Program-made: the position numbers and the translations under genes
NCBI RefSeq assembly: GCF_010550675.1
Contig: NZ_JAAGOA010000021.1
Coordinates: 1-64,000, forward strand
Reading direction: 5' to 3'
Length of the DNA: 64,000 nt
Origin: Phytoactinopolyspora halotolerans
GTDB lineage: Bacteria > Actinomycetota > Actinomycetes > Jiangellales > Jiangellaceae
Notes under the pieces: generated by a model
What the model saw: only the letters and a program-made list of their open reading frames with translations
Told to the model about the DNA's origin: nothing
Database searches by the model: none
Shown: positions 926 to 51,056 of the stretch, piece by piece
Layout of the letters: each line of letters opens with the position of its first letter
How positions within the stretch are numbered: position 1 is the first letter of the stretch

Positions 926-1180
926 AATCATCCCAAAAGCGACAATTTCGCTGACTGGATGGGGCCTCGCGTACTTCAGGCCCCAGGCGGTCAATGTCGA
1001 CCGGCGAGGTTGAAGGATCCTTCCCGGTCATTCCTCGCGACAAACATCTTTCGGTCATTTGAGTGTGCGAGCGCGCTCGTGCGTGAGTGGGGCCATGTGT
1101 CGCTGACCCGTTGTCGCGCCCGTCGGCAGACGTTACGCCATGGTCAGGCCGCCTTCTCTGCGCCACGCGCGCCGGTAACG

Positions 1181-1209
1181 TGATGCACGTCACATTTCTT
1201 GTTCGTGCG
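1181..1209 (+). promoter_or_regulatory. candidate ECF-type promoter of giant surface protein 1
   Basis: TGATGC, 17 nt, then CGTGCG, with the core ACGTCAC directly after the first box. The same arrangement occurs at 18714-18743, 46461-46489, 49436-49464 and 50158-50186. The start codon at 1368 lies about 160 nt downstream. It could be a sigma-factor promoter or the operator of a shared regulator. Confidence 0.5.
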
Positions 1210-18620: not shown

Positions 18621-18713
18621 GTAACGCGGCGCAGACGTCGGCGAGCGTGACGTCGTAGTCGTACGCGACGTCGGTCGTGCCTGTGGTGAATGAGTTCCTG
18701 AAAACCTCAGATG

Positions 18714-18743
18714 TGAGGCACGTCACAAGCGATGGTTCGTGCG
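18714..18743 (+). promoter_or_regulatory. candidate ECF-type promoter of giant surface protein 2
   Basis: TGAGGC, 18 nt, CGTGCG, with core ACGTCAC right after the first box. It matches the site before giant protein 1 (TGATGC-N17-CGTGCG). The start codon is about 175 nt downstream. Confidence 0.5.
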
Positions 18744-18917: not shown

Positions 18918-21900
18918 GTGAGAGTGCCAACGAGGAGGGGCCCCAGCGCACCGCGCGGGAGACCTCCGGGTGGGTGTCGGACCGCGGTATCGGCCGCGAC
19001 GTCGGCGGCAGTGCTGCTGTCGTCGCTCGTCGTGCCTGCCCTATCGATAAGTACGGCGCAGGCGGCGGAGGGGGACGGCACCGTCACGGTGCGCGTGATC
19101 CGCGACTACAACGCCAACGGCCTGTGGGACGCGACGTTCGGCGGCGGCGTGGAGGTGAACGAGCCGGGCGTCGAGGGTATCGAGGTCGAGCTGATCGACA
19201 CCGAGGGCAACGTTGTCACCGGGGAGACCGGCGCCGACGGCGTGGCAACCTTCCCGGCCGATGCGAGCCTGGTCGGCGGGAAGTACCGTGTCGAGGCGTC
19301 GATCCCCGATGAGCTCGACTATCTCCACCCGGCGATCGTCGATCCGAATGCCACGGGTGACAACGCGCTGTCGAGCCATGTCGACTTCGTCGATGTGAGC
19401 GACGGTGCGGACGCCGACGTTGTCATGGGTGTGTGGAACCCGTACGACTACACGGGCGACGATCCTCGGATGGTGTCCGGGAAGAACCATTCATTCATCG
19501 TTAATGGCGAGCCTTTCGATACGGATGCGGAGAAGTCGATCACGGGGTTCGGGTACGACAGTGCTCGGAACACCTACATCCCAGGTGATCACGCGAGCGC
19601 GGACGTCATCAATTATCAGAACCCAACTGACTACTCTCTGCAGGGAGAGACGGGTGCGATTTGGGGTATCGCCGCGCATACGCCGGATGAGGTCTATGCG
19701 GCTACCGCACTCCGTCGTGGAGTCAAGTTCGGTCCGGGTGGCATCGGCGCCATCTACAAAATGGACTCGGCGGGCAACGTCGAGGTCCTAGCCGATCTCG
19801 GCGGTGCCGCGGGCAGCGTGGCGCACATGCTTGACCAAGGTGACCCCGACTTCAACCACGATCCGGAAATTGCGGTCAACGTGGGGAAACAGTCGCTGGG
19901 CGACGTAGACGTTTCGGAGGACGGATCGACCCTCTACGCCGTCAATCTCAACACCAAGGAGCTCGTTGTCATCGACGCCGCGTCCGGCGCCGTCCTCGAC
20001 GAACGAGTGATTCCTGCTCCGTCCGGTGTGAGCGGAGAAAACTGGCGGCCGTGGGGTCTAGGCGTCAAAGACGGTCAGATCTACGTCGGTGGCGTCGATT
20101 CCCAGGAGGTCGGCGGCGGCACACCAAGCGCCTATATCTGGCGGGTCGACGAAGACACGTTGAGCTTCGGCAACGCAGAGCTGATCTTGTCCGAGCCTCT
20201 CGACGATGACAGATCGGTCATTCTTCCGTCCGGACCATATTGCCCAGACGGGGCTCCGTGTCCTCCTTCGCATTGGCGGGCTTGGACCGACGACCCGGAC
20301 GAGTGGGAGATCGACTACGTCAACAATGCCGAAACCGGAACCAGGGTTGGCACGCACCCGCAGCCTATTCTCGTCGACATCGACTTCCTCTCCAGCGGAG
20401 ACCTGGCCGTCGGCTTCGAGGATCGTCGAGCGCTGCAGATGCCACATCTGGCACCGCGATGGGACGGCGGCCATGACGGTGCCCTCTACGCAGCCATCGC
20501 ACAGGCTGGAGACGTCAACCGAGTCTGCCTGGTCGACGGTGCCTATGTGTGGGAAGGCAACGCAGGCTGCGTTGCCCGGACACTCAACTCGGACACGAAT
20601 ACACAGCCGGTGCCGCCGGAGTTTTACCACGGCGACATGTCGTGGCCGTCGCACCCCGAGGCAACAATGGGTGCACTGGCGGCGGTTCCCGGGCGGGTGC
20701 ACCTGGTGACGAACGCCCACAGCATTCAAGCGGGAGGCCTTGGCCCGAGCAGTACTCAAGGTCTGCTGTGGTTGAGCAACGAAACAGGCGGCCACGACGA
20801 CAGAGCGGTCCTGCAGCCGGCCCAGGATGGAGCATTCCTCAAGGGGCACGGCTTGATGGACATCTCGGTGATGTCCGAGAACGCGCCGCTGCAGATCGGT
20901 AACTATGTCTGGTTCGACGACGACGGTGACGGCGTCCAGGACCCGGACGAGGCCCCGGTTGCGGGCGTGACCGTCAACCTCTACGACGAGGACGGCAACC
21001 TGGTCGCGACGACCGTGACGAACGAGAAGGGCGAGTACTACTTCGACTCGATCGAGCACGGTCTGGAGCCGGACACGTCCTACATCGTCGCCATCGACAA
21101 CCCCGGCGACTTCGAGGAAGGCGGAGTTCTCGAGGGCTACGGTCCGACCCAGCATCTGACCGGACAGGACACCACGGGCGGCTCGGAGGTCAACGACTCC
21201 AACGGCGAGCTGACCGACGACGGCTTCGCCGAGTCGCCGGTCACCACCGGGGACTGGGGTCACAACGACCACACGACCGACTTCGGGTTCTCCAAGCCGA
21301 ACGCGGAGATCGACAAGGGTGACGACCAGGACACCCAGGCCGACACCCCGGACGACGCCACCGGTTACGAGCCGGGTGAGACTCGTGAGCTGCAGATCCC
21401 GGTGAAGAACACCGGTGGGAAGAAGCTGACCAGCGTCGTCGTCACCGACCGGACCATCACCGGCGGCCACATCGAGGACCTGCAGTGCACATTCCCCGGT
21501 GAGGACGCCGCCACGGCAGGCACCTTCGACGAGGGCGCCGGCACGTGGGAGGTCCGCTGGGAGGCGTCGTTCGGCGATTCGCCGGCCACCTGGGATCCGG
21601 GTGTCAGCTTCGACTGCACCGCGACGCTCACGTTGGACGGCACGGACGCGCCGCACGCCGACGAGATCGAGGTGTCGGCCGAGGTGCTGGGCACCGGCGA
21701 CCCGGTCAACCCGCCGCCGGACAGGTACCACTCGTTCACCGGTGACGTCCAGGTCATCAAGTACGACGGCCGGGACGGCTACACGCCGGAGCTCGACGAG
21801 GACGGCATCCCGAACAAGCCGCTGACCAGCGAGCCCGAGCGGGACGCCAACACCGAGGACGAGGCGGTGACGTACCGGACCGAGGACGGAACCTCGACCG

Positions 21901-24900
21901 GGCCGCAGCCGGTGACGTTCGCGGTGACCAACACCGGCGAGACCTGGCTGTCCGACATCACCATCACGGACGAGACGCTGGAAGGGCCGGACCTGGAGAA
22001 CATCACGTGTGACTTCTCCACCGTCGGCGGGCCGTCGGAGGGAACCTCGTGGGCGGGCCCGTGGGAGCCTGGCACGACGTTCTACTGCACCGGTGAGCTG
22101 ACGCTCGATTCGTCGAGCGACGAGACGCACGCCGATGAAGTGACGGTCGAGGGGACGGTGCTCAAGCCGGCGCCGAACCCGGACTACGACCCGAACGACC
22201 CGGACGGCAACCCGTTCACCGACCAGCCGATGACGGACGAGGACGGCAACCCCGTTCCGAGCGACATCACGGTCACCGACGACGACCCGTACCACGCCGA
22301 CGTCTACGACCCGAGCGTGAACATCGAGAAGGAGGACGAGCACGGCAACGACGCCGACGCGCCGGAGGACTCCACCGGCTACGCGCCCGGTGAGGAGCGG
22401 GAGATCCAGTTCCCGGTCACCAACAACGGAAACCAGGATCTGTTCAAGGTCACGATCACGGACGAGACCATCTCCGGTGGTCAGATCACCGAGATGTCCT
22501 GCACCTTCCCGGGTGACGACACAGCCACCCAGGGCGAGCAGGGCGACGGCGGCATCTGGAGCGTCCGTTGGGCGGCCAGCTTCGCCGAGGAAGATCCGGC
22601 GATTTGGGAGCCCGGCGTATCGTTCGACTGCACGGCCACGCTGGTCATGGACGGCACCGACGCGCCGCACGTCGACGAGGCTCGCGTGCACGCCACGGTG
22701 GTCGACACCGGCGAGGAAGTGGACGACCCGGATCGCTACCACTCCTTCACCGGTGACGTCCAGGTCATCAAGTACGACGGCCGGGACGGCTACACGCCGG
22801 AGGTGGACGAGAACGGCGTCCCAGGCAAGCCGCTGACCAGCGAGCCTGAGCGGGACGCGAACTCCGAGGATGAAGCGGTGGCCTACCCGGCCGAGGACGG
22901 TACCTCGACGGGTGCGCAGCCGGTGACCTTCGCGGTGACCAACACCGGGGAGACCTGGTTGATGGACATCGTCATCACCGACGAGACCCTGTATGGGCCT
23001 GATCTGGAGAACATCACCTGTGACTTCTCCACGGACGCCGACGGCGCGCCGACGTCGGGCACCAGCTGGGGCGGTCCGATGGCCCCGGGTGCGACGTTCT
23101 ACTGCACCGGCGAGCTGACGCTCGACGCTGCGGATGAGGACACCGAGACCCATGGCGACAACGTCACCGTCGACGCCGTCGTCGTGAAGCCTCGGCCGAA
23201 CCCGGACTACGACCCGGAGGACCCGGACAGCGGCGACCCGTTCACCGACGAGCCGATGACGGACGAGGACGGCAACCCCGTCCCCAGCGACGTCGAGGTG
23301 ACGGACGACGACCCGTACCACGGGGAGGTATCGAACCCGAGCACGGACATCGAGAAGGGCGACGAGAAGGGCAACGACGCCGACACCATCGAGGATGGTG
23401 CCGAGTACGCGCCCGGCGAAGAGCGCGCGATCGAGTTCGAGGTCACCAACGACGGTAACCGCGACCTGAAGAACGTCGTCGTCACCGACGAGACGGTCTC
23501 CGGTGGCCAGATCACCGACATGTCCTGCACTTTCCCCGACGGGACGACGACGGACGGCGTCCTGGAGGGGCAGACCTGGACCGTGCGGTGGGAGGCCAGC
23601 TTCGCCGAGGAGCCCGCGGTGTGGGAGCCCGGGGTGGTCTTCACCTGCTCCGCCATGCTGAAGGTCGACGGCGACGCCGAGGTTCACCAGAACATCGCCA
23701 AGGTGTACGCCGACGTCAACGGAACCGGTGAGCCGGGCGGTCCCGGCGACGAGGTTCCGCCGCCGGAGGACGAGTACCACGCGTACTCCGGTGAGATCAG
23801 CGTCATCAAGTACGACGGCAACGCGACCGATCCGGCCGACGCGTCGGACGAGTCCAAGGACGCGCTCGACCCCCGGGTCGACGCGGACGACGCCGACAAC
23901 GCGGCCACCTACCCGATCGAGCAGGGCGGCACCGACACCGGTCCGCAGCCTGTCCGCTGGGTGGTGACCAACACCGGTACGGCCCCGCTGTACAGCGTGG
24001 TGGTGACCGACACCACCATCGAGGGGCCGGCGCTGGAGAACGTCACCTGTCTCTTCCCGGGCGAGTCTGAGCCCACCGCCGGCGAGTTCGCCGACGGCAC
24101 GTGGACCATCACGTGGGACGCCTCGACCGAGGTCGACGACGGCATCGCGCAGACGGTGTTCGAGCCGGGTGACACGTTCTACTGCGAGGGTGAGCTGACG
24201 CTCGAGCCCAACCAGACGCACGAGAACCACGCGGGCGCCGAGGGCACGATTGTCAACCCGGAAACCCACGAGGTCACCGAGGAGAAGGTCGAGGACGAGG
24301 ATCCCTTCGTCCCGAGGACCTTCGAGCCGGACGTGGAGATCATCAAGGAAGGCGGCCAGCCGGACGTCGAGGGCGGCGCGCCCATCGGTCCCGGAACCGT
24401 CGTCCTGATCCCGGGTGAGACCGCGCAGATCGAGTTCACCTCGGAGAACACGGGCACCGAGCCTCTGGTCGACGTGGTGATCTCGGATCTGGTCACCCAG
24501 GGTGATGCCGAGCTGACCGACCTGGTCTGCGAGTTCCCCGACGGCACGTCCGCCGAGGGCGTCGTGGTGGGCGACCGGCTCGTCGTCACCTGGGCCAACA
24601 CCGTCGGAATCGACGGTGCGGACCCGGTGTCCAGCTGGGCCCCCATCAGCGAGGACCCAGAGGCCGTCATCGACTGTGTGGCGACCCTGACCGCGCTGAA
24701 CAAGGGTGAGATTCACGCCGACGAGGTCCGAGTCGACGCGAGGGGCGAGTTCAGTGGCGTTCCCGTGGAAGACGACGACGAGTGGGACGCGGTCACGCCG
24801 AACGTCGAGGTCGACAAGTCGGTGGTCGGCGCCGTCGAACCCGTGCAGGGTGAGACGGGCCTGTACGACGTCACCTACGAGGTGATCGTCACCAATCTGG

Positions 24901-26879
24901 TCCCCGTGGCCACGACCTACGACGTGAAGGACACGTTCCGGTTCGGCGACGGCATCGAGGTGGTCGACGTCGGCGTCACCGGCGGCCCGGAGGGCGTCGA
25001 GATTCTCGGCGACTTCGACGGCGCCGGCCAGCCGTTCATCGCCAAGGGCGTGCCGATGGTCGCCGACGACGATCCGGAGTACGCGCCACACGTGTATGCC
25101 GTGACCGTCCGCGTCGACGCGTCGGGCCTGCTCGCTGACGGCGGCTCGGAGCCGGCGGCCGGCGAGTGCCCGGAGCCCGGCGGCCCGGAGGAGGGTGGTC
25201 TGCTCAACGAGGCCACCGTGACCTTCCCGGGCGGCGAGGACACCGACACCGATTGCGTGCCGGTGGGCAAGCCGACCCACGTCAAGGAGCTGAAGTCGGC
25301 CGAGCCGGCCGGCGACGGCACGTGGGCCGTGGTGTACGAGATCACGGTCTCGAACACCGGCGAGGGCCCGGCCACGTACAACCTGGACGACGAGTTCAAG
25401 TTCTCCCCGAACGTCTCCGTCGTCGAGGTGGACCCGGTCACCGCCGACCCGTCGAGCCTCGAGGTCAACCCTGGCTTCGACGGCGCGTCGGACACCCGGA
25501 TCGCGACCGGCCAGGAGCTCCTGGCACCGGACGACCCGGATTACACGGCCCACGTGTACACCGTGTCCGTGCTGGTGGACGTTCCGCTCAGCTTCGTGGA
25601 CCTCGAAGGAGGCCTGGAACAGACGGAGTGCACCGACGGTGAAGGAACCAACGAGACCGAGGAGGCCCTGAACAACGTCTCGACCCTCACGGTCGGCGAC
25701 ACGGAACAGCGGGACGACGCGTGCGCCCCGCTGCCCTCCATCGAGATCGAGAAGACGGCCGGTGACGTCGAGGTCGCGGGCGACGGTGTCGGAACCATCA
25801 CGTACGACGTGGTGGTGACCAACTCCGGAGCCGCTGCCGGCGACTACGACCTGTACGACCAGCTCCGCTACGGCGACGGGATCACGGTGGTGTCCTCCGA
25901 GGTGACCAACACCGCTCCCGGCGACGTGGAGGTCGAGGGCTCGTGGACCGGCCTGGGTGCCGAGAAGCGGTCCGCGGAGAACCTGGTCGCGGCGGACGTC
26001 CCCATGGGTTCGAAGGCCGAGCACACCTACCAGGTGACGGTCGACTTCGAGCTCGACGGAGACAACCCGCCGGCCGAGTCGGATCTCGAATGCCCGGAGA
26101 ACCCGGGTGACGGGGACCGTGGCGGCCTGCTGAACGGTGCGGTCGTCGTGCACAACGACCTCGATGACTCCGACGACGCGTGCAAGCCGGTCAAGCCGCA
26201 GGTCGACATCGACAAGACCGTGGCGATGGTCCGCGACGACGGCGACGGCAAGTACACGATCACGTACGACGTGGTGGTGACCAACGTCGGCGCCGTCAGG
26301 GATGTCTACACCTTGGAGGACACCCTCCGCTTCGGTGGCGGCATCGACATCGACCGGACGGCGATCGTCGAGACGAAGCCGGGCGGCCTGAAGGTCAACG
26401 AGGGTTGGAACGGGACCAGCGACGTGGTGATCATCCGCGACCAACCGATCGGTGTCGGCAAGAGCCACACCTACCGGGTGGGAGCCAAGGTCACCGTGCC
26501 GTCGTCGGTTGCGGACGACCCGAGTGCCTTCGAGTGCCGCCCGGTCGACGGGGACGAGGGCGGAAGCGGGTTCCTGAACACCGCGACCGTCACCGGCCTG
26601 GCCAACACGGCCGACGACGACGCGTGCGACACGCCGAAGACGCCGGAGCCGCCGTCGCCGGAGTCACCGGAGAAGCCGGAACAGCCGGAGCGACCGACGC
26701 CGCCAGGGCAGAACCCGCCGGCGCCGCAAGGGCCGCTTCCGGGGCCGGACCACCCGAACACCGGTGCCCAGATTGCGCTGTATGCAGGCATTGCCCTGAT
26801 GCTTCTGGGCGTTGGCGTGCTGCTGATTCTCGCACGTCGCCGGAACACCACCGGCATGGGAACCGGCAGCCCGGAGTGA
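18918..26879 (+). CDS. giant secreted multidomain surface protein with LPXTG-like anchor
   Basis: 2653 residues. Signal peptide 1-50 (ends STAQAA). SdrD-B-like beta domain ~53-160 with RDYNANGLWD. A beta-propeller-like region follows at ~172-655. A second SdrD-B-like domain (~661-800) has the calcium-style DDDGDGVQDPDE. Three 337-residue compound beta repeats (~795-1805), one further related domain, then four ~150-residue repeats (~1965-2575) with YDVVVTN and LRFGDG motifs. A Pro/Glu spacer, HPNTG at 2612-2616, a membrane helix and ARRRN form a sorting signal. The start is GTG with AAGGAG at 18903-18908; the leader GTAAGGAGACC is shared with the gene at 1368. The protein is highly acidic. It probably forms long cell-surface stalks or adhesins; the ligand is unknown. 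Confidence 0.87.
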   Translation: MRVPTRRGPSAPRGRPPGGCRTAVSAATSAAVLLSSLVVPALSISTAQAAEGDGTVTVRVIRDYNANGLWDATFGGGVEVNEPGVEGIEVELIDTEGNVVTGETGADGVATFPADASLVGGKYRVEASIPDELDYLHPAIVDPNATGDNALSSHVDFVDVSDGADADVVMGVWNPYDYTGDDPRMVSGKNHSFIVNGEPFDTDAEKSITGFGYDSARNTYIPGDHASADVINYQNPTDYSLQGETGAIWGIAAHTPDEVYAATALRRGVKFGPGGIGAIYKMDSAGNVEVLADLGGAAGSVAHMLDQGDPDFNHDPEIAVNVGKQSLGDVDVSEDGSTLYAVNLNTKELVVIDAASGAVLDERVIPAPSGVSGENWRPWGLGVKDGQIYVGGVDSQEVGGGTPSAYIWRVDEDTLSFGNAELILSEPLDDDRSVILPSGPYCPDGAPCPPSHWRAWTDDPDEWEIDYVNNAETGTRVGTHPQPILVDIDFLSSGDLAVGFEDRRALQMPHLAPRWDGGHDGALYAAIAQAGDVNRVCLVDGAYVWEGNAGCVARTLNSDTNTQPVPPEFYHGDMSWPSHPEATMGALAAVPGRVHLVTNAHSIQAGGLGPSSTQGLLWLSNETGGHDDRAVLQPAQDGAFLKGHGLMDISVMSENAPLQIGNYVWFDDDGDGVQDPDEAPVAGVTVNLYDEDGNLVATTVTNEKGEYYFDSIEHGLEPDTSYIVAIDNPGDFEEGGVLEGYGPTQHLTGQDTTGGSEVNDSNGELTDDGFAESPVTTGDWGHNDHTTDFGFSKPNAEIDKGDDQDTQADTPDDATGYEPGETRELQIPVKNTGGKKLTSVVVTDRTITGGHIEDLQCTFPGEDAATAGTFDEGAGTWEVRWEASFGDSPATWDPGVSFDCTATLTLDGTDAPHADEIEVSAEVLGTGDPVNPPPDRYHSFTGDVQVIKYDGRDGYTPELDEDGIPNKPLTSEPERDANTEDEAVTYRTEDGTSTGPQPVTFAVTNTGETWLSDITITDETLEGPDLENITCDFSTVGGPSEGTSWAGPWEPGTTFYCTGELTLDSSSDETHADEVTVEGTVLKPAPNPDYDPNDPDGNPFTDQPMTDEDGNPVPSDITVTDDDPYHADVYDPSVNIEKEDEHGNDADAPEDSTGYAPGEEREIQFPVTNNGNQDLFKVTITDETISGGQITEMSCTFPGDDTATQGEQGDGGIWSVRWAASFAEEDPAIWEPGVSFDCTATLVMDGTDAPHVDEARVHATVVDTGEEVDDPDRYHSFTGDVQVIKYDGRDGYTPEVDENGVPGKPLTSEPERDANSEDEAVAYPAEDGTSTGAQPVTFAVTNTGETWLMDIVITDETLYGPDLENITCDFSTDADGAPTSGTSWGGPMAPGATFYCTGELTLDAADEDTETHGDNVTVDAVVVKPRPNPDYDPEDPDSGDPFTDEPMTDEDGNPVPSDVEVTDDDPYHGEVSNPSTDIEKGDEKGNDADTIEDGAEYAPGEERAIEFEVTNDGNRDLKNVVVTDETVSGGQITDMSCTFPDGTTTDGVLEGQTWTVRWEASFAEEPAVWEPGVVFTCSAMLKVDGDAEVHQNIAKVYADVNGTGEPGGPGDEVPPPEDEYHAYSGEISVIKYDGNATDPADASDESKDALDPRVDADDADNAATYPIEQGGTDTGPQPVRWVVTNTGTAPLYSVVVTDTTIEGPALENVTCLFPGESEPTAGEFADGTWTITWDASTEVDDGIAQTVFEPGDTFYCEGELTLEPNQTHENHAGAEGTIVNPETHEVTEEKVEDEDPFVPRTFEPDVEIIKEGGQPDVEGGAPIGPGTVVLIPGETAQIEFTSENTGTEPLVDVVISDLVTQGDAELTDLVCEFPDGTSAEGVVVGDRLVVTWANTVGIDGADPVSSWAPISEDPEAVIDCVATLTALNKGEIHADEVRVDARGEFSGVPVEDDDEWDAVTPNVEVDKSVVGAVEPVQGETGLYDVTYEVIVTNLVPVATTYDVKDTFRFGDGIEVVDVGVTGGPEGVEILGDFDGAGQPFIAKGVPMVADDDPEYAPHVYAVTVRVDASGLLADGGSEPAAGECPEPGGPEEGGLLNEATVTFPGGEDTDTDCVPVGKPTHVKELKSAEPAGDGTWAVVYEITVSNTGEGPATYNLDDEFKFSPNVSVVEVDPVTADPSSLEVNPGFDGASDTRIATGQELLAPDDPDYTAHVYTVSVLVDVPLSFVDLEGGLEQTECTDGEGTNETEEALNNVSTLTVGDTEQRDDACAPLPSIEIEKTAGDVEVAGDGVGTITYDVVVTNSGAAAGDYDLYDQLRYGDGITVVSSEVTNTAPGDVEVEGSWTGLGAEKRSAENLVAADVPMGSKAEHTYQVTVDFELDGDNPPAESDLECPENPGDGDRGGLLNGAVVVHNDLDDSDDACKPVKPQVDIDKTVAMVRDDGDGKYTITYDVVVTNVGAVRDVYTLEDTLRFGGGIDIDRTAIVETKPGGLKVNEGWNGTSDVVIIRDQPIGVGKSHTYRVGAKVTVPSSVADDPSAFECRPVDGDEGGSGFLNTATVTGLANTADDDACDTPKTPEPPSPESPEKPEQPERPTPPGQNPPAPQGPLPGPDHPNTGAQIALYAGIALMLLGVGVLLILARRRNTTGMGTGSPE
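21302..24330 (+). repeat. three ~1-kb tandem coding repeats in giant protein 2
   Basis: Units of about 1011 bp (337 residues) begin near 21302, 22318 and 23338. A stretch of more than 50 bases around 21740 recurs identically around 22751 (protein VQVIKYDGRDGYTPE), showing recent duplication or gene conversion between units 1 and 2. Unit 3 is more diverged. Confidence 0.85.
24808..26640 (+). repeat. four ~450-bp coding repeats near the anchor of giant protein 2
   Basis: Units begin near 24808, 25278, 25741 and 26201. Each holds a DUF11-like beta domain with VVVTNxG and a downstream Cys-containing end (xDACxP or DTDCVP). They are diverged at DNA level, so older than the 1-kb repeats. Confidence 0.7.
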
Positions 26880-31750: not shown

Positions 31751-31989
31751 CGACCGTCTAGTCCGCCGTGCCCATCCCGACGCCTCCACCGCCGGCGTCG
31801 TCACCGATGCCGATGGCGCAAATGCCGGCAGCCGCCGCCCCGATCGCAGGGGGTGGAGGTGACATGGATCGGTTGTATGCACGCACGTCTTGATGTGGCC
31901 GAGGTCCGGAACAGCACGCATCCGAAATGTGATCTATTGCACCTGTAGTCCCGCGTGCGATCTTCGTTCTGCCGGCGTCATTCACAGCG

Positions 31990-32415
31990 ATGATGGAGCA
32001 ATCGAGGCGGGCTGCGATGTTGATCCAGATCCCCGTGCTGGCGGCGGCACTGGCGAGCATGGTCGTCGGCCCATGTGCGCTGGTCGGGGCTGGGCGTTGC
32101 GAGCCGGCGTCGTACCGGGCATCCACGACGGTGTGGCCGCTGCCCGGTGCCCGTGTCGCGCCGGGCGACGTCGTGCGCTACGCGATCACGATCGCCCCTG
32201 TGGGTCAAGTGCCGGTTGACGAGGCGACCTATGCCGAAGACCTGTCGGACGTGCTCAGTGACGCGAGATGGAACGGAGATCTCGACGTGTCGAGTGGGAT
32301 AGCGGCGTTCAACGGGGCCGTGCTGGCGTGGGCCGGGAATCTGAATGCGGATGACGTCGCGACCGTGACGTACTCGGTGACGGTGATGAGCGAAAGCGTA
32401 GTGAAGGATGTCTGA
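31990..32415 (+). CDS. small secreted protein made of one giant-protein repeat
   Basis: 141 residues: an N-terminal hydrophobic export segment (~9-35), then one beta-sandwich unit. Residues ~80-135 read AEDLSDVLSDARWNGDLDVS and then NLNADDVATVTYSVTV. These align nearly residue by residue with repeat 4 of the giant protein at 1368 (EDDLSDVLDDAEWNDDAKAS, LEVDQVVELTYSVTV). It has no wall-anchor signal. It overlaps the DyP peroxidase gene by 8 bp, so they form an operon. It may dock to, cap or compete with the repeat arrays; this is inference. Confidence 0.75.
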   Translation: MMEQSRRAAMLIQIPVLAAALASMVVGPCALVGAGRCEPASYRASTTVWPLPGARVAPGDVVRYAITIAPVGQVPVDEATYAEDLSDVLSDARWNGDLDVSSGIAAFNGAVLAWAGNLNADDVATVTYSVTVMSESVVKDV

Positions 32416-33622
32416 GGGGGAGCGCGAGACCCGGACGACGACGGGCGACGATGCTGCCTGCCGCGGTGCCGGTGATACCGAAGCGCGACCGTCGCGGCGT
32501 CGGATGCTCGGAGCGCTGACCGTCGGTATCGGCAGCGTCGGCGCAGGCGTCTTCGCCGGCAGGGCCGCGTTTGGAGGCACCACGACGGGCCCCTGCGGAT
32601 CATCGCCACCGAGACCGTCACCGGCGCCGATCCCGGCGACGGGCATACATCAAGCGGGCATCGCAGCACCCGTGGTACCGCAGCAGTTCTCGCTCACCGT
32701 CGTCGTCGACGTCCCCGGCGCCGGAGACCCGTCATTCCTGCCGGCGCTCGGCGACCAGCTGCTGACTTTGCTCGACGGCGGCGTTCACGACGCCGGCGAC
32801 CTGACCGTGACGATCGGTATCGGCCCTCGTCTCGTGGCCGCCGTCGACGGTGCGCTACCGGCGGCGGGGCCGCTACCGGCCTTCCTGGGCGATGCCGAGC
32901 TGGCATCCGATCGGGCCGGAGGTGATCTGCTCCTGCTGGCGAGCGGCAGCGACCCGGTGGTGTTGCCGAAAGCCGTCGACGCACTGCTGGCGGTGCTGTC
33001 CGCGCCGCTGCCCGAGGGCAAGGAACGGTGGCGACAGTTCGGCTTCCGAGGGCCGGGGGCAGACGGCGTCGTCCGGAACGCGTTCGGGTTCCACGACGGC
33101 ATCGTCGTGCCGCGCGGTGAGGCCGAGCTGCGCGAGAACGTGTGGGTGCAGGAGGACCCGCGGGTTGCCGGCGGCACGGTCGCCGTGGTCCGTCGGCTGC
33201 GGATGGATACCCGGGCGTTCACCGCATTGCCGGTCGCGGAGCAGGAGTCCGCGGTCGGGCGGCGCAGATCGGACGGTGCGCCGCTCTCCGGTGGCGGACG
33301 TATGGCCGAGGTGGATCTGACCGCGAAGACAGCCGACGGGCAGTACGTAACGCCGCTCGGCTCACATGCCCGGGCAGCGCATCCTTCGACGACGGGGAGC
33401 GCGTTGATGCTGCGTCGGGGGTACTCGTATGCCGAGGGAGACGAGACGGGTCTGATGTTCATCTCCTTCCAGCGGGACCTGCGCACGTTCGTCGCGACGC
33501 AACACCGCCTCGACGAACAGGACGCGATGATGCGCTTCGTCACGCCGACGGCGAGTGCGAGCTTCTTGGTTCCCCCTGGTTTCGACCGGGATCGGCCGCT
33601 GGGGGCGTCGCTGCTGGAGTAA
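32408..33622 (+). CDS. Tat-exported DyP-type heme peroxidase (EfeB-like)
   Basis: 404 residues. A twin-arginine signal RPSRRRMLGALTVG (~28-41) exports the folded protein. DyP hallmarks follow: the GFHDG form of the GxxDG motif with the catalytic Asp (~227), a proximal-heme His in GSHARAAHP (~318), the distal Arg in MLRRGYSY (~334) and LMFISFQRD (~346). It oxidises bulky substrates with peroxide. Unlike EfeUOB loci, no iron permease or EfeO gene is adjacent; it is instead coupled by an 8-bp overlap to the single-repeat protein. That context suggests oxidative modification or cross-linking at the cell surface, which is inference. Confidence 0.9.
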   Translation: MSEGERETRTTTGDDAACRGAGDTEARPSRRRMLGALTVGIGSVGAGVFAGRAAFGGTTTGPCGSSPPRPSPAPIPATGIHQAGIAAPVVPQQFSLTVVVDVPGAGDPSFLPALGDQLLTLLDGGVHDAGDLTVTIGIGPRLVAAVDGALPAAGPLPAFLGDAELASDRAGGDLLLLASGSDPVVLPKAVDALLAVLSAPLPEGKERWRQFGFRGPGADGVVRNAFGFHDGIVVPRGEAELRENVWVQEDPRVAGGTVAVVRRLRMDTRAFTALPVAEQESAVGRRRSDGAPLSGGGRMAEVDLTAKTADGQYVTPLGSHARAAHPSTTGSALMLRRGYSYAEGDETGLMFISFQRDLRTFVATQHRLDEQDAMMRFVTPTASASFLVPPGFDRDRPLGASLLE

Positions 33623-36670: not shown

Positions 36671-37237
36671 TTATGACGCCGCGCCCAACTCCTCGCGCTG
36701 CTGGGCCATGTAAGCCGCGCGGAGCGCCCGACGTGCGCGGGTCGCCAAGCTGGAGACGGCGTTGGCGGTCATCGACATCGCGGGCGCCAGCTCGGACGGG
36801 GAATAGCGGTCGACGTCGATCAGCCACAGCACGTGCCGCCACCGCGGCGGCAGGCTTGCCCAGGCCGCGTTGACTAAGTCGGCTTGGTGCTCGTTGGTCG
36901 GCGCCGTGGCCTGGTCATCCCAGGCGGTGAAGTCATCGATGCAGACCGTGCGGCCTTGAACGGCCGATTGCCGGTATGCGAGCCGCTTCACGGTCGAGAC
37001 GACATACCCTCCGAACGAGTCCGTCGGTCCATGTCCGGAACGTACTGCTTTGAGTACCAGATAGAACGCCTCCTGTACGAGGTCGTCGGCGACGTGAATA
37101 TCGCGGACTATTCGATACGCCACCCGACGTGCGATTGGCGCCACATTTCGGTACAGCTCTACGAATGCACTCTCGTCGCCGCTTCTCGCCCTGCTGAGCA
37201 GAGCTGAGGTGTCGTCGATTTCCACCCTACTGATCAC
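36671..37237 (-). CDS. ECF-type RNA polymerase sigma factor (paralogue 2)
   Basis: 188 residues from GTG 37237, chosen because it aligns with the start of the paralogue at 195-839; the frame is open to 37333. Region 2 holds DDLVQEAFYLVLKAV and region 4 SMTANAVSSLATRARRAL. There is no extended C-terminal domain and no adjacent anti-sigma factor. It lies between LAL regulator 2 and the sugar ABC operon. It is a candidate reader of the TGA...CGTGCG promoters in this window, but paralogue 1 is an equal candidate. Confidence 0.85.
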   Translation of the reverse strand: MISRVEIDDTSALLSRARSGDESAFVELYRNVAPIARRVAYRIVRDIHVADDLVQEAFYLVLKAVRSGHGPTDSFGGYVVSTVKRLAYRQSAVQGRTVCIDDFTAWDDQATAPTNEHQADLVNAAWASLPPRWRHVLWLIDVDRYSPSELAPAMSMTANAVSSLATRARRALRAAYMAQQREELGAAS

Positions 37238-37306
37238 GGAGCCGACGTTGCCGGTGTGGGAAATACGACCGCGTCGCGGAGATCCACATTTCCCTGCCGG
37301 CCGCCT

Positions 37307-37323
37307 TACGTACGTACTACGTG
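37307..37323 (-). promoter_or_regulatory. shared upstream motif of ECF sigma gene 2
   Basis: Minus strand CACGTA-N5-TACGTA, ~70 nt before the start codon at 37237. It matches in sequence and distance the site at 908-925. Confidence 0.45.
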
Positions 37324-37563
37324 ATACCGACAATCGGCGCTACTTAGGCTATATGCGCAAAGAGATTAATAGACATTAAATAGTCCGAAATGCCACGGGC
37401 TGGGCTGTAACTGCCCGAGTCGTGATGGTGTTCCGGTCCGGCCGGTATGCGCCCGCGTGGCGTGCGTGATATGTGTGAGGACGGCTCGTTGCGGTGCGAC
37501 GGCCGTCGGTGGGGCGCATGCTCGGATCACCGCGCTGCGTAGGCAATTTGTGGGAGGGGACCG

Positions 37564-46401: not shown

Positions 46402-46460
46402 CCGAGCCCGTCCGACCGCGCGGGAGGACGGTCGCCGATAGCGCATGCGTGCGGCGAATG

Positions 46461-46489
46461 TGAAGCACGTCACTCTGTCTGATCGTGCG
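46461..46489 (+). promoter_or_regulatory. candidate ECF-type promoter of epimerase-like gene 1
   Basis: TGAAGC, 17 nt, CGTGCG with ACGTCAC core. It lies just after the LAL gene and about 105 nt before ATG 46596. It matches the sites before both giant surface-protein genes. Confidence 0.5.
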
Positions 46490-46595: not shown

Positions 46596-47864
46596 ATGTA
46601 CCAGGGCAAGAAGGCGGTGCTCGTGGGGTGCGGCACGCGCGCGGACGCGATCAAACTCGCGCCGCTGGTGCGCGAGCTCCGGAACGGCCCGTGGACACAT
46701 CCGGTGGTGGCCGCGTCCGGGCCGGATCGGGACGCGATGGACCAGGTCAACGGGCTGTTCGGGATAGTGCCGGACGTCGACCTCGGACTGACCGACCGTG
46801 ATCTGACGCTGACCGAGACGACCACCCACGCGTTGAGCGCGTACAGCAGCCTGCTCGATGCCCAGGATGTGGATGCCGTGGTGATCGCGGGAGGGACGAC
46901 GACGGCGCTCGCCGCGGCCCTCGCGGGTTTTCACGCCAAGCGTCCGGTCGTGCATGTGGAGGCCGGGCTGCGCACCGGCTGTTTCTACGCTCCGTTCCCT
47001 GAGGAGGTCAACCGCCGGTTGATCGGTCAGATCGCATCGTTGCACCTCGCTCCGACCTGGATGAACCGGGCGAACCTGCTTGAGGAGGGCGTGTACCCGG
47101 CCGACGTGAGCGTCACCGGGAGCACGGTGATCGATGCTCTCTCCCGCGCAGCGTCGATGCGGATGCCCACCGGCGACCGCGTCGTCGATGCGGCGATAGC
47201 GGAGCGACGGCAGGTGGTGTTGGTGACCGTGGACCGCCGGGCGGGCGGCGATTCCGGGTTGGCGGCAATCGGACGGGCCGTCGCCGCCGTCGCCCGGGCC
47301 CGGCCCGAGTTGCTGATGGTCGTGCCGGTGGACGCTGCGGCAGCCGTGCGAAAGCGGCTGCTGCCGCCGTTGAAGGAGATCGAGAACGTTCGGGTGATCC
47401 CACCGCTGCCATATGGTCCCTTCGCCTGGGTTCTCAGCCGTTCGACGCTCGTGCTGACCGACTCGGGCTCGATACAGGAGGAGGCCCCCGCCTTCGGGGT
47501 GCCGGTGCTGGTCGCGAGAGACACGACGGAGCGGCCGGAGGCGGTGGAGACAGGTGCGGCGAGGCTGGTGGGTACCCAATCCGGCGCGATCGTGCACGCC
47601 GTGGAGGCACTCCTCGATCGGATCGGACGCGCTGCTGCCACGTCGCGGACATCCACGGCACCCGTCGCCGCCTCCGCCGATGCGTCTGTGCCGGAATACC
47701 GGACCGGCCACCGGGCGCCGCACGGCGTGCTGGTCAGCCCGTTCGGCGACGGGCAGGCGGCCGCGCGGATGCGCTCGGCCATCGAGGAACTGCTGGGAGT
47801 CGGGCAGCGGATCCCGGAGTTCGCCGCGCCGGTGCCGCTGCTGGAGGAGGCGAAGGCGTCGTAG
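46596..47864 (+). CDS. UDP-GlcNAc 2-epimerase-like protein with altered active site
   Basis: 422 residues from ATG 46596 with AGGAGAGGGGA 5 nt upstream. Two-domain GT-B-like fold of the non-hydrolysing UDP-GlcNAc 2-epimerases (WecB/MnaA): Lys20 in DAIKLAPLV, VEAGLRTG (Glu122), FPEEVNRRL (Glu136), TDSGSIQEEAPAFGVPVLV and RDTTERPEAVE near the C-terminus. Two residues important in E. coli WecB are replaced. The Asp of the HGDT motif is Gly (AGGTTT, 100), and the His of the THRREN-like motif is Asp (TVDRRAGG, 213). A ~70-residue C-terminal extension ends with a SPFGDGQAAARMR tail also found in the gene at 50370. Ordinary epimerase activity is doubtful. Confidence 0.82.
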   Translation: MYQGKKAVLVGCGTRADAIKLAPLVRELRNGPWTHPVVAASGPDRDAMDQVNGLFGIVPDVDLGLTDRDLTLTETTTHALSAYSSLLDAQDVDAVVIAGGTTTALAAALAGFHAKRPVVHVEAGLRTGCFYAPFPEEVNRRLIGQIASLHLAPTWMNRANLLEEGVYPADVSVTGSTVIDALSRAASMRMPTGDRVVDAAIAERRQVVLVTVDRRAGGDSGLAAIGRAVAAVARARPELLMVVPVDAAAAVRKRLLPPLKEIENVRVIPPLPYGPFAWVLSRSTLVLTDSGSIQEEAPAFGVPVLVARDTTERPEAVETGAARLVGTQSGAIVHAVEALLDRIGRAAATSRTSTAPVAASADASVPEYRTGHRAPHGVLVSPFGDGQAAARMRSAIEELLGVGQRIPEFAAPVPLLEEAKAS

Positions 47865-47875
47865 CCGGCGGAGCC

Positions 47876-47912
47876 GGCGCCAGGTCTACAACCCCCCAGT
47901 AGACCTGACGCC
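47876..47912. terminator. bidirectional hairpin between convergent genes
   Basis: CAGGTCTAC at 47881-47889 pairs with 47899-47907, extended by GGCG/CGCC with one mismatch. The loop is C-rich. It separates the epimerase-like gene from the convergent LAXTG mini-gene. Confidence 0.6.
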
Positions 47913-47943
47913 GTGCTTGCGATGTGCCGGCCGCGGCCGACTG

Positions 47944-48135
47944 CTACCGCGTCGTCGCCCGGCGGCGTGCCGGGATGACGTTCTTCGCGGCGAGAAGCAG
48001 GTAGCCGATGGTGCACAGCGCCACCGCCAGTCCTACGAACGCCCAGATCGACGGCGAGCCGGTGGCGGCCAGTGCGGTCACACCGCCGGCGCCCGTCACG
48101 GCCGTCGACGAGTTCATTGCCGTGCCTTGATACAT
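47944..48135 (-). CDS. 63-residue mini-protein ending in a LAXTG sorting signal
   Basis: Layout: ~20 Ser/Thr/Gly-rich residues, ALAATGSPS (LAATG ~22-26), one membrane helix (~31-49) and the basic tail ARRRATTR. That is a complete LAXTG-helix-basic wall-sorting signal, but there is no N-terminal signal peptide and almost no mature protein. It lies 75 bp downstream of the GT2 glycosyltransferase in the same direction, so it is probably the second gene of that operon. It could be an attachment point for a glycan, a membrane partner of the transferase, or simply a small tail-anchored protein. Confidence 0.65.
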   Translation of the reverse strand: MYQGTAMNSSTAVTGAGGVTALAATGSPSIWAFVGLAVALCTIGYLLLAAKNVIPARRRATTR

Positions 48136-48210
48136 GTTTCCCCCCTAGTAGGTGCCGTGCGATCCTTGCGCCGCACGGCGTGGTGTGTGCGGCAGGTGAG
48201 TGGCTCTCGG

Positions 48211-49296
48211 TTACCGCGCCACCGACGTCGTCGTCTGGACGTGGTGCCAGGCCGCCGGGCGTCGCAGGACGACGTCGACGGCCGACCGGAGCAGGACTCC
48301 CTGCAGGAACAGGTCATAGATCCACTCGATGAGAACTGGGGCGGCGAGAACGCGACCTCGGGCGCCCCGATGCCACACGGTGACGACGCGTTCGGCGACG
48401 AAGATCAGCCCGAGCGGTGTCCACAGCGGGTGGATGCCGAATGCGCCGATGGCGATGATGTGTGCGGTGTAGGCGAGGTAGAGCCACATGGCCACGACGC
48501 CGAACGCCATGCCTGCCTGCTGTAGTGCGTAAGGCCTGGTGACCCGGGTCAGCCCGTAGCTTCTCAGGTTCTCCAGGGCGCCGCGTTGCCAGCGCAGACG
48601 TTGTCGCCACAGGTCCCGCCACGTCGGCATGACCTCGGTGACGACGATGCACTCGGGCGGCGAGACGCAGCGCAGCCCCATGCTCTTGATCGCGAGCGTG
48701 ATCTCGTTGTCCTCAGTCAGCGCGTGGGTGTCGTATACCTGGCCACGCTGCTCGAGTAGCCGTCGCAGGACGGCCACGCGATGCAGCGTGGCCGTCCCCG
48801 TCAGCACCAGCGCGTCGTCGGCCCGGCGGGCGATCTGCCTCTGATAGCGGGCATACTCGTTGCGTTGCAGTTCACCGAGGAGTCCGCCGCCGGGCTCCCC
48901 GAGGAAGATACCGCCGACCGCGCCCACCTGTGCATCACCGCTGAGCGTGGCCAGAGCGACCTCGATGAAGCGTGGCGCGAGCATCGAGTCGGCGTCCATC
49001 ACCAAGATCGCGTCGCCTGCTCCGCGCAGGGGTAGCAACTCTCCGAGAACCTGGTTGAGTGCACCGGCCTTCTTGTGCGTGTTGCCGATCGTCTCGACCA
49101 CCTCGGCGCGGTGTGCGGCGGCGACGCCGGCGGTGTCGTCCGCGCAGTTGTCGGCGACGACGATGACCGAATCCGGTCGGCGAGTCTGCCGGTGTAGCGA
49201 CTCCAGCGCCGCCGCGATCCGGTCCGCCTCGTTGTGGGCCGGCATCACGACGGTGACGTGTGTGCCGTCCATGACGGGCGAGCGTGGCTCGCTCAT
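48211..49296 (-). CDS. family 2 processive glycosyltransferase, membrane-bound
   Basis: 361 residues. GT-A domain with VMPAHNEADR (~18-27), DADS (101-104) binding the nucleotide sugar metal, TEDNE (194-198) carrying the catalytic Asp, and QRLRW (232-236) typical of processive beta-glycan synthases such as PgaC, NodC and hyaluronan synthase. The C-terminal ~110 residues hold about three membrane helices. It likely polymerises or extends a hexosamine-type surface glycan in the membrane. Flanked by two UDP-GlcNAc-epimerase-like genes and followed by the LAXTG mini-protein, so the cluster looks dedicated to a surface polymer. Confidence 0.88.
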   Translation of the reverse strand: MSEPRSPVMDGTHVTVVMPAHNEADRIAAALESLHRQTRRPDSVIVVADNCADDTAGVAAAHRAEVVETIGNTHKKAGALNQVLGELLPLRGAGDAILVMDADSMLAPRFIEVALATLSGDAQVGAVGGIFLGEPGGGLLGELQRNEYARYQRQIARRADDALVLTGTATLHRVAVLRRLLEQRGQVYDTHALTEDNEITLAIKSMGLRCVSPPECIVVTEVMPTWRDLWRQRLRWQRGALENLRSYGLTRVTRPYALQQAGMAFGVVAMWLYLAYTAHIIAIGAFGIHPLWTPLGLIFVAERVVTVWHRGARGRVLAAPVLIEWIYDLFLQGVLLRSAVDVVLRRPAAWHHVQTTTSVAR

Positions 49297-49435
49297 CGAT
49301 ATCCCCCCGATGTGGTTCCCCCGTGGTTCCGCTCAGCGGTGGCCGCTGATTGCGGGCCATTTCGTCGTAGATACGAACAAAATGGACGTACATCATTAGA
49401 CACGGCTGGCTTGGTCGATGCGCGCTGAACGGTGG

Positions 49436-49464
49436 TGACATGTGTCACGGTCTGATAGCGTGCG
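49436..49464 (+). promoter_or_regulatory. candidate ECF-type promoter between glycosyltransferase and epimerase-like gene 2
   Basis: TGACAT, 17 nt, CGTGCG. The first part, GTGACATGTGTCAC, is a perfect palindrome. On the minus strand the overlapping set TGACAC-N17-CGCGCA points to the glycosyltransferase start 120 nt away. It may be a two-way promoter or a symmetric operator. Confidence 0.45.
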
Positions 49465-50076
49465 ACTACGCTGTGTGGTAATTGGTAGCACCATGTAAGG
49501 ATGTGCTGTTCGCAGCCGTGCCGGATGGCGGTAGGTCGAAACCGCACACGTTGTACGGGTTTTCCGCATCCGAGCATCCGGGCCGATCAATCCGGGTGGG
49601 GCGGCTGTGATCGCGGGCGCACCATCGCGGAAGGTACGCCGTCCAGAAGTGAGCGTTGTCGCACTGTGTGTGTTGTCGTGGGCGGCGCGGGGCATGGGCG
49701 TGCCGGACTACGTAGTTTCCACATGTTTCGTACGTGTTTCCCGCTTAAGTTCCCCTCGCCGCGGTTTGCCGACGCGGTGAACCCGGTGCGATCCGGCATA
49801 GTGCTGAACTGGGCCGTTCATGGGTCAGGGCGACGGTCGCGTTCGGGTCGGCGCAGGTGTGGGCCATCCGTCCGGGCGAGATTCTGATCGGCGTGCTGGG
49901 CGTGCGACCTCCAGAGGGGTGAGGTCGCGCGTCGTTCTGCCGCGCGCCTCGACTCCAGCCAGTCGGGGTGCGCGGCGTCTGCAGGTGCGTGAGCGCCTAC
50001 GCGCCACGCGGGAGTGCCGCCGCGCCGGGCGCGGGGCATGGAGCCAGGCCAGGCGGATATCCGATGTCGGCCGAAC

Positions 50077-50137
50077 GCGTGCGACGTCGGTCGGAGGGGC
50101 GTCGGCCCGGAGCGTGCGACACCGATCGGCGGGGCGT
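50077..50137 (+). repeat. 26-bp direct repeat, 35-bp period
   Basis: GCGTGCGACGTCGGTCGG at 50077 and GCGTGCGACACCGATCGG at 50112, each followed by (A/C)GGGGCGT. Further single GCGTGCGA words occur at 50134 and 50180. The last of these forms part of the promoter-like site. Confidence 0.5.
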
Positions 50138-50157
50138 GCGATGCAGGCCTGGCAATG

Positions 50158-50186
50158 TGACGTACGTCGCAGCCCGCCGGCGTGCG
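50158..50186 (+). promoter_or_regulatory. candidate ECF-type promoter of epimerase-like gene 2
   Basis: TGACGT, 17 nt, CGTGCG with an ACGTCGC core. It lies about 185 nt before the GTG start at 50370, the same arrangement as before epimerase-like gene 1. Confidence 0.45.
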
Positions 50187-50293
50187 ATCGCCCGGTGCCG
50201 AGGACTCTGCAATATGTGAGGCGCGGCTACGGGGGTCTTCGCGCATCGTGGGACATGGGGTCCGAGCGGTGAGCAGACGGCCGCGTCACGGAG

Positions 50294-50332
50294 GCTCGGT
50301 GCGTTCCATCCCTACCTCGGAACGCACCGAGC
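50294..50332 (+). promoter_or_regulatory. strong hairpin in the leader of epimerase-like gene 2
   Basis: A 14-bp perfect stem (GCTCGGTGCGTTCC at 50294-50307 with 50319-50332) and an 11-nt loop, 37 nt before the start codon. It could be a terminator, attenuator or mRNA stabiliser. Confidence 0.55.
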
Positions 50333-50369
50333 GTCCCGCCGACGTACGCGAACGGCGAGGGGAGACGCG

Positions 50370-51056
50370 GTGAGAAACGAGCACGCGATCCTGATCGCGT
50401 ACGGGTCGTGCGCCGAAGCGATGAATCTCGCTCCGGTCGTGCTGGAACTGCGGCGATGCCGCCGGATCCGTCCGGTGGTGGGTGCGCCGGGTGCGGGATC
50501 GGAGACCTTTGACCAGGTGCGGCGGCTGTTCCGGGTCGCGCCCGAGCTCGATCTGGACCTGGCCGGTTGCGGGACCTCGCTCTCCGACGTGGTGATGCGC
50601 GCCCGGGCTGGTCTCACCGCGTCGCTGGAGCGCAGTGCCGCCTACCTGACCGCTCGCGGGATCGGGTCGGTCCTGGTCGACGGTGATTCGACGTTGTCTC
50701 TGGCCGTCGCCATGGTCGGGTTCCGCGGCGGGCTACCCGTCGTCCACGTGAACGCGGGCGTCACCGGTTCGCCGCCGGAGGACTACCCGGACGGGGCACG
50801 GACCGGCCGGCTGATCGCGCAGGTGGCCTCGCTCCACCTGGCACCGACCGCGGCTGAGCGCCGATCGCTGATCGACAACGGGGTCGACCCGGATGACATC
50901 GTGGTGACCGGCAGGCTCACGGTCGACACCAGGATGGCTTCGGCGGGGAACCCGTTCGGCGACGGGCGCGCGGCGGCGCGGGTGCGAGCGGCCGTCGAGG
51001 AGCTGCTGGGGCTCGGCCGGCGCATGCCCGATTTCGAGCAGTCTCACCTGGTGTAG
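50370..51056 (+). CDS. half-length UDP-GlcNAc 2-epimerase-like protein
   Basis: 228 residues from GTG 50370 with GAGGGGAGA upstream. It aligns with residues 1-180 of the protein at 46596 (LLxxGVxPxDxxVTG, IAQVASLHLAPT). It then jumps straight to that protein's last ~40 residues (NPFGDGRAAARVRAAVEELL), so the whole second domain is missing. Active-site pattern is the reverse of its neighbour: the Asp of GDST is present (106), but the first Glu is Asn (HVNAG, 128), the second is Asp (YPDGAR, 141) and the Lys is Asn (19). It cannot be a normal epimerase. It may be a binding partner of the longer protein or a decaying copy, but the frame is fully intact. Confidence 0.75.
   Translation: MRNEHAILIAYGSCAEAMNLAPVVLELRRCRRIRPVVGAPGAGSETFDQVRRLFRVAPELDLDLAGCGTSLSDVVMRARAGLTASLERSAAYLTARGIGSVLVDGDSTLSLAVAMVGFRGGLPVVHVNAGVTGSPPEDYPDGARTGRLIAQVASLHLAPTAAERRSLIDNGVDPDDIVVTGRLTVDTRMASAGNPFGDGRAAARVRAAVEELLGLGRRMPDFEQSHLV

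Follow-up and report, generated by a model that had tools for sequence, protein, structure and literature searches.

Two putative pseudo-epimerases of the WecB family beside a glycosyltransferase gene in Phytoactinopolyspora halotolerans

Two proteins of the UDP-GlcNAc 2-epimerase (WecB/MnaA) family, one full-length and one reduced to a single domain, are encoded in the window analysed here, a 64,000-nucleotide stretch of the Phytoactinopolyspora halotolerans genome (G000). Both have lost catalytic residues, and both are conserved, intact and under purifying selection in several species of the genus. The pair is real, conserved and unusual; it has a clear origin and varies a family already known, and is not a new kind of system. 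In the window the long gene is followed by a gene for a tiny LAATG peptide, a GT2 glycosyltransferase gene and the short gene (Table 1). A first-pass annotation made from the letters alone had given the coordinates and frames of the long, GT2 and short genes correctly, and had rightly noted that the two epimerase-like genes flank the GT2 gene. For comparison we used four other species of the genus (G001-G004), five genomes in total.

Table 1 Features of the epimerase/GT2 locus and copies of the composite promoter element in the window.
Feature	Position	Strand	Description
Long pseudo-epimerase (putative)	46596..47864	+	422 aa, WecB family, D95G and H213D
Tiny peptide	47944..48135	-	63 aa, LAATG motif, TM helix, basic tail
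GT2 glycosyltransferase	48211..49296	-	361 aa, DAD and TED motifs, QRLRW
Short pseudo-epimerase (putative)	50370..51056	+	228 aa, GTG start, domain I and C-terminal helix only
Composite element	46459..46489	+	N10 spacing, upstream of long gene
Composite element	49434..49464	+	one mismatch, GT2/short intergenic region
Composite element	50156..50186	+	one mismatch, upstream of short gene
Composite element	1179..1209	+	one mismatch, upstream of giant surface protein 1368-6677
Composite element	18712..18743	+	upstream of giant surface protein 18918-26879
Composite element	31928..31959	+	one mismatch, upstream of DUF7927 protein 31990-32415

Both proteins match PF02350 above its cut-off (268 bits for the long form, 68.5 bits for the short form), and only the long form also passes the WecB equivalog model TIGR00236 (304.8 bits, against 83.4 for the short form and a cut-off of 210). 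The AlphaFold2 model of the long form is an ordinary two-domain structure, in which two Rossmann domains in a GT-B fold are recognised from the model and its Foldseek matches. The protein was also aligned to E. coli WecB (1vgv) and a set of 26 diverse members of the family; in its own numbering, D100, E122 and E136 correspond to D95, E117 and E131 of E. coli WecB. This alignment agrees with the earlier reading that the long form keeps the Lys and both Glu of the family, with Gly for the Asp of the GDT motif and Asp for the catalytic His. R15, K20, E122, E136, R140, S290 and E296 (own numbering) are retained, D100G (equivalent to D95G) and H213D are substitutions, and the catalytic residues Asp95, Glu117, Glu131 and His213 read G, E, E and D. 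Among near-invariant columns of the alignment, 14 of 75 are changed in the long form, compared with 0-3 in the 26 controls. Three of the four allosteric residues of P. alvei MnaA are also changed, with P, D, R and D at the positions of Q42, H43, R209 and H241.

The changes are not the same in every species. His213 is D in G000, E in G001 and R in G002, and H in every full-length control aligned; several of its neighbours also differ among the three long forms, and loss of the catalytic Asp in the long form is confined to G000. When sites were classed according to the list for P. alvei MnaA (PMC11464976, Table 4), each of the four near-invariant allosteric residues differed in one or more of the three long forms, against none of the six UDP/substrate-binding residues (His213 left out) in any of them, a contrast with a Fisher p of 0.005 that draws on ten sites only. 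In P. alvei MnaA, the E135A mutant has no measurable activity, and the allosteric mutations Q42A and H241A lower kcat from 33.4 to 0.05 and 0.53 per s, respectively (PMC11464976). Judging from the altered catalytic and allosteric sites, the preserved binding sites and these mutant activities, the long form has very probably lost normal epimerase activity and would probably still bind UDP or a UDP-sugar. Calling it an active UDP-GlcNAc 2-epimerase, as automatic annotation does, is probably an error, even if the pair were only decaying. Proven active enzymes carrying the same substitutions, which the first-pass annotation had named as evidence that would refute its reading, were not found. It could be argued that the long form is a normal, working epimerase and the short one a pseudogene fragment beside it, given that the long form exceeds the TIGR00236 cut-off; however, the loss of catalytic and allosteric residues, together with a short gene that three species keep intact under purifying selection, makes this highly improbable.

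The loss of catalytic residues need not mean the absence of all chemistry, as single mutants of E. coli WecB at K15, D95, E117, E131 and H213 are reported to release the 2-acetamidoglucal intermediate still (cited in PMC8869731), and some residual chemistry may persist in the long form. The long form could even be an active enzyme with altered chemistry, catalysing elimination or hydrolysis of UDP-GlcNAc or working as a GT-B glycosyltransferase, with the short form as an accessory. The retention of the UDP/substrate-binding residues and of both Glu, the intermediate released by these E. coli mutants, and the fact that GT-B is a glycosyltransferase fold are compatible with this idea. Nevertheless, D, R and E at His213, among neighbours which also differ, are what would be expected from loss rather than from a new conserved catalytic residue, and we regard altered chemistry as distinctly unlikely.

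In the short form, domain II is wholly missing, and what remains of the WecB-family structure is domain I with the C-terminal helix. Cys, Asn, Asn, Gly and Gly occupy the positions of Arg15, Lys20, Glu122, Glu136 and Arg140 (long-form numbering), and Asp95, Glu117, Glu131 and His213 correspond to D, N, G and an absent residue. The first-pass annotation had described this protein as keeping the Asp and lacking the Lys, both Glu and the whole second domain, with which the alignment agrees, and the binding Arg has gone as well. Its AlphaFold2 model, a single Rossmann domain with a terminal helix, is confident (pLDDT 83, pTM 0.83), and the best solved structural matches of the model are 2-epimerases. 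The C-terminal tail is indeed common to the long and short forms, as had been pointed out, but it is not distinctive of them: nearly all members of the family have the motif (N)P[YF]GDGxA, which reads NPYGDGQACSR in E. coli WecB. Its presence in the short form indicates that the deletion took out domain II and left the C-terminal helix.

The idea that the two proteins have lost complementary parts of the active site did not survive comparison between species. The pattern is found only in G000, where the Asp is present in the short form and absent from the long form, as would suit a single active hetero-oligomeric epimerase in which the short form supplies the missing Asp; in G002 both forms keep the Asp, and in G001 the long form has Asp and the short form Glu. 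We rejected active-site complementation, as the Asp pattern varies between species, neither partner supplies the His in any of them, and the short form has neither the Arg, the Lys and both Glu nor domain II. Furthermore, the family builds its active site within one chain, in the cleft that separates its two domains (PMC11464976), which counts against a two-protein active epimerase, and such an arrangement is hardly credible.

The long and short forms occur together in G000, G001 and G002, that is in three of the five species, and the check for co-occurrence suggested earlier found the pair adjoining both the GT2 gene and the LAXTG peptide. The tiny peptide is present in G000 and G001; in G002, an N run beside the GT2 gene (L117 11575-11868) covers the place where it would be expected. 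G003 has only a long form, which is its intact exosortase-linked WecB, and G004 has neither form; the long form is degenerate where the short form is present. Short forms are known in three species only: screening of a sample of 394 Actinomycetes and of 22 genomes of the order yielded none beyond these. One candidate, in G360, was discarded as a frameshifted full-length gene, probably due to an assembly error or a broken gene. The first-pass annotation had staked its reading on the short form being neither absent nor frameshifted in sister strains; no frameshift was seen, and the form is absent from G003 and G004. Its statement that the frames of both genes are intact applies to all six genes of G000-G002, none of which has stops or frameshifts.

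Selection was estimated by the Nei-Gojobori method (NG86), and dN/dS between G000 and G002 was 0.26 for the long form, 0.19 for the short form and 0.14 for GT2, values limited to NG86 on this closest pair, with ML estimates being saturated or unstable. The short forms of these two species have the same length and 72% identity, and their substitutions at codon positions 1, 2 and 3 amount to 0.19, 0.12 and 0.48. From these ratios and the codon-position pattern, both the long and the short forms are under purifying selection. As weaker evidence, a neutral simulation agrees with this conclusion, the frames staying open in 0.3-5% of runs for the long form and 3.5-20% for the short form, depending on distance. 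An enzyme fold with lost catalytic residues and purifying selection on the gene, as expected of a pseudoenzyme with retained function, were found.

These data also bear on the possibility of slow decay, in which the exosortase was lost, the epimerase became unneeded and both copies are drifting remnants nearing loss. The exosortase is missing exactly where the epimerases degenerate, the replacement of His213 varies from species to species, and the short form of G001 is fast-evolving (45% identity, GDG motif lost), as decay would predict. However, dN/dS is far under 1 for both forms between G000 and G002, with the short form no worse than the long one, substitutions in the short form are concentrated as described at the third codon position, the six genes are free of stops and frameshifts, and the promoter element described below is retained upstream of both genes in G002. 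We therefore place decay on the unlikely side. A third 2-epimerase-like gene of the genome (contig C45, L124) was considered as a normal WecB backup and set aside; it sits among sugar-nucleotide genes and, by its motifs, presumably resembles WbjD/FnlC-type enzymes.

The nearest intact relatives of the pair sit in actinobacterial exosortase loci, composed of a tiny L[AP]xTG peptide, an exosortase, a GT2 and a WecB. In G003, G014 and G016, a WecB-family gene with intact catalytic residues lies near a gene for a membrane protein of ~200 aa which matches XrtS/XrtR/XrtP and TIGR04178, and the same loci hold a GT2 and a tiny L[AP]xTG peptide. Among 22 genomes of the family the exosortase was found in these three only, each time beside an intact WecB; G000, G001 and G002 have no TIGR04178 match anywhere, and none for XrtR. 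Within the 394 Actinomycetes, eight genomes carry this exosortase type, and all eight loci include a GT2 like those of G003 and G016 and a tiny L[AP]xTG sequence, with a WecB-family gene in seven. In one of these genomes (G161) the tiny sequence and the exosortase share one open frame, and in G056 (L191 2102-4894) the exosortase-type GT2 and WecB form a natural fusion in a single frame of 930 codons, which ties the two functions together. In all eight of the loci L119, L121, L122 and L190-L194 the tiny peptide starts with MY or VY and has L[AP]xTG, a TM helix and a basic tail; it may serve as a glycan anchor.

The 63-aa LAATG peptide of the window resembles the tiny peptides of these loci, and tiny peptide, GT2 and WecB homologue are found together at 46596-49296, as in the sister loci. 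The GT2 proteins of the sister loci score 273-285 against NF053846 (XrtP-associated glycosyltransferase), with one at 667 (G316); the window GT2 scores 40.6 bits, well under the cut-off of 520. Compared with exosortase P/R/S-type loci (NF012139, NF012138, NF033767; NF053846; choice-of-anchor P proteins), the window shares the WecB family, a GT2 and the tiny L[AP]xTG peptide, but its genome has no exosortase, its GT2 belongs to another subfamily and its WecB is degenerate and duplicated. In a tree built on domain I, the short forms make up one clade (99/99) within the genus clade (99/98), and this clade joins the G000-G002 long forms in a group that branches after G003 (94/80), within which the G001 long form, the G000/G002 long forms and the short clade have no settled order. 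According to the tree, the gene was duplicated once G003 had split off, on the branch to the three species, and, taken together with the distribution of the exosortase, it assigns the duplication, the domain-II deletion, the catalytic losses and the exosortase absence to the same part of the tree, implying no sequence of events. We consider it very likely that the pair descends from an exosortase locus, an origin which the first-pass annotation had not noticed. Among the papers listed, searches of the open-access literature found none on actinobacterial exosortase loci of this composition; no papers turned up on pseudo-epimerases, nor on LPXTG-linked exosortases of actinobacteria.

Two further observations concern Promicromonospora. 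An exosortase homologue beside WecB (L038 9257-9844, L041 9262-9837) lacks the residue aligned with the catalytic Cys and keeps the Arg and His, and is a possible pseudo-exosortase judging from its alignment. The WecB of Promicromonospora iranensis (L041 9986-11167) has Gly at catalytic Glu117 (HVGAG), unlike its close relatives.

The long and short genes had been said to carry the same promoter pattern, and both do have a composite element upstream, which consists of TGTGA-N6-TCAC and, 10 or 11 bases further on, CGTGCG, and which is found more often than expected by chance. Its palindrome resembles a CRP/FNR-type site. Without the first T, the pattern has six exact matches in the 7.3 Mb genome, four of them inside the window, against 0.02 expected from window shuffles; as it was refined on the window, these window counts are optimistic, and the sites in G002 and G004 serve as independent support. 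In G002 the element stands before the long gene, and a copy with two mismatches before the short gene, and in G004, which has no epimerase pair, it precedes a surface protein gene (L176). Other copies in the window (Table 1) lie upstream of two giant surface proteins of 1769 and 2653 aa with DUF11, DUF7927 and SdrD_B-type domains, which end in the C-terminal sorting signals PLADTG (1368-6677) and HPNTG (18918-26879), respectively. The distribution of these sites suggests that surface-protein genes and the epimerase/GT2 locus form one regulon, which the element marks. With a conserved, intact and selected pair which shares a promoter element and adjoins a GT2 and a LAXTG peptide, the earlier view that this is not an ordinary sugar pathway stands.

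A sigma-70 scan found nothing. The window also holds two ECF-sigma-like genes (195-839, 36671-37333) and four large LuxR-type regulators. Between the element of the short gene and its start codon, an 18-bp inverted repeat (50290-50336; 94%, 11-nt loop) is a possible terminator, operator or leader structure. The DUF7927 protein adjoins a Dyp-type peroxidase (32408-33622), a relative of which (66%) lies near the GT2 and short genes of G001 (L118 2080-3222).

The computed evidence supports a course of events that starts from an ancestor-like locus, in which an intact WecB accompanies the exosortase, the GT2 and the tiny L[AP]xTG peptide and which persists in a sister species and in other Actinomycetes. 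There WecB would most likely supply UDP-ManNAc to the GT2 for a surface glycan, by analogy with the E. coli NGR glycan, for which the GT2 NfrB and WecB have been proposed to work together (PMC8669472). Like that pathway, the intact ancestor locus probably combined a GT2 and a 2-epimerase in making a surface glycan; in E. coli, however, WecB is active and there is neither a pseudo-epimerase pair nor a sortase/exosortase link. On the branch to the three species the gene was duplicated and one copy lost domain II, in a lineage where the exosortase is absent. Both copies lost catalytic residues, remaining intact under selection and sharing their element with giant sortase-anchored surface proteins and the GT2 region. 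In these species a GT2, the tiny peptide (in G000 and G001) and the surface-protein regulon remain, and the epimerase probably survives as a pseudo-enzyme pair.

The features which the two proteins share with WecB/MnaA (TIGR00236, PF02350; E. coli 1F6D/1VGV, S. kasugaensis KasQ 7VZ6) suggest what each may do. The long form has the fold, the UDP-binding residues and the C-terminal GDG helix, and differs by the lost catalytic His (in G000 also the Asp) and the altered allosteric residues; it would not epimerise and would bind UDP or a UDP-sugar. The short form has domain I and the GDG helix, with neither domain II nor the substrate-binding residues. It would bind no nucleotide and, as the family is dimeric (KasQ is a dimer in solution; PMC8869731), is probably a domain-I partner of the long form. 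The pair might then tune the modification of surface glycan or surface proteins, most simply by regulating the adjoining GT2 according to UDP-sugar supply. Regulation is the simplest role that would suit proteins of a dimeric family in which the UDP site and domain I are retained, the active site is gone and the promoters are shared; we put it forward tentatively, with somewhat less than an even chance of being right. More doubtful is the specific form of a two-protein UDP-sugar sensor, in which the long form would bind the UDP-sugar and the short form pair with it, controlling the GT2 or sortase-anchored proteins in replacement of the exosortase pathway. The explanation as a whole, from descent from an exosortase locus through duplicated and selected pseudo-epimerases to a UDP-sugar-binding long form and a domain-I partner which tune surface modification, seems to us about evenly balanced between right and wrong.

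If it is true, living relatives would allow the origin of a pseudo-epimerase pair to be followed through the intact ancestor, the exosortase absence, the duplication, the domain deletion and the active-site loss, and the change of a biosynthetic enzyme into a regulator could be tested on this example. The pair also points to the actinobacterial loci in which a tiny L[AP]xTG peptide, an exosortase, a GT2 and a WecB are encoded together.
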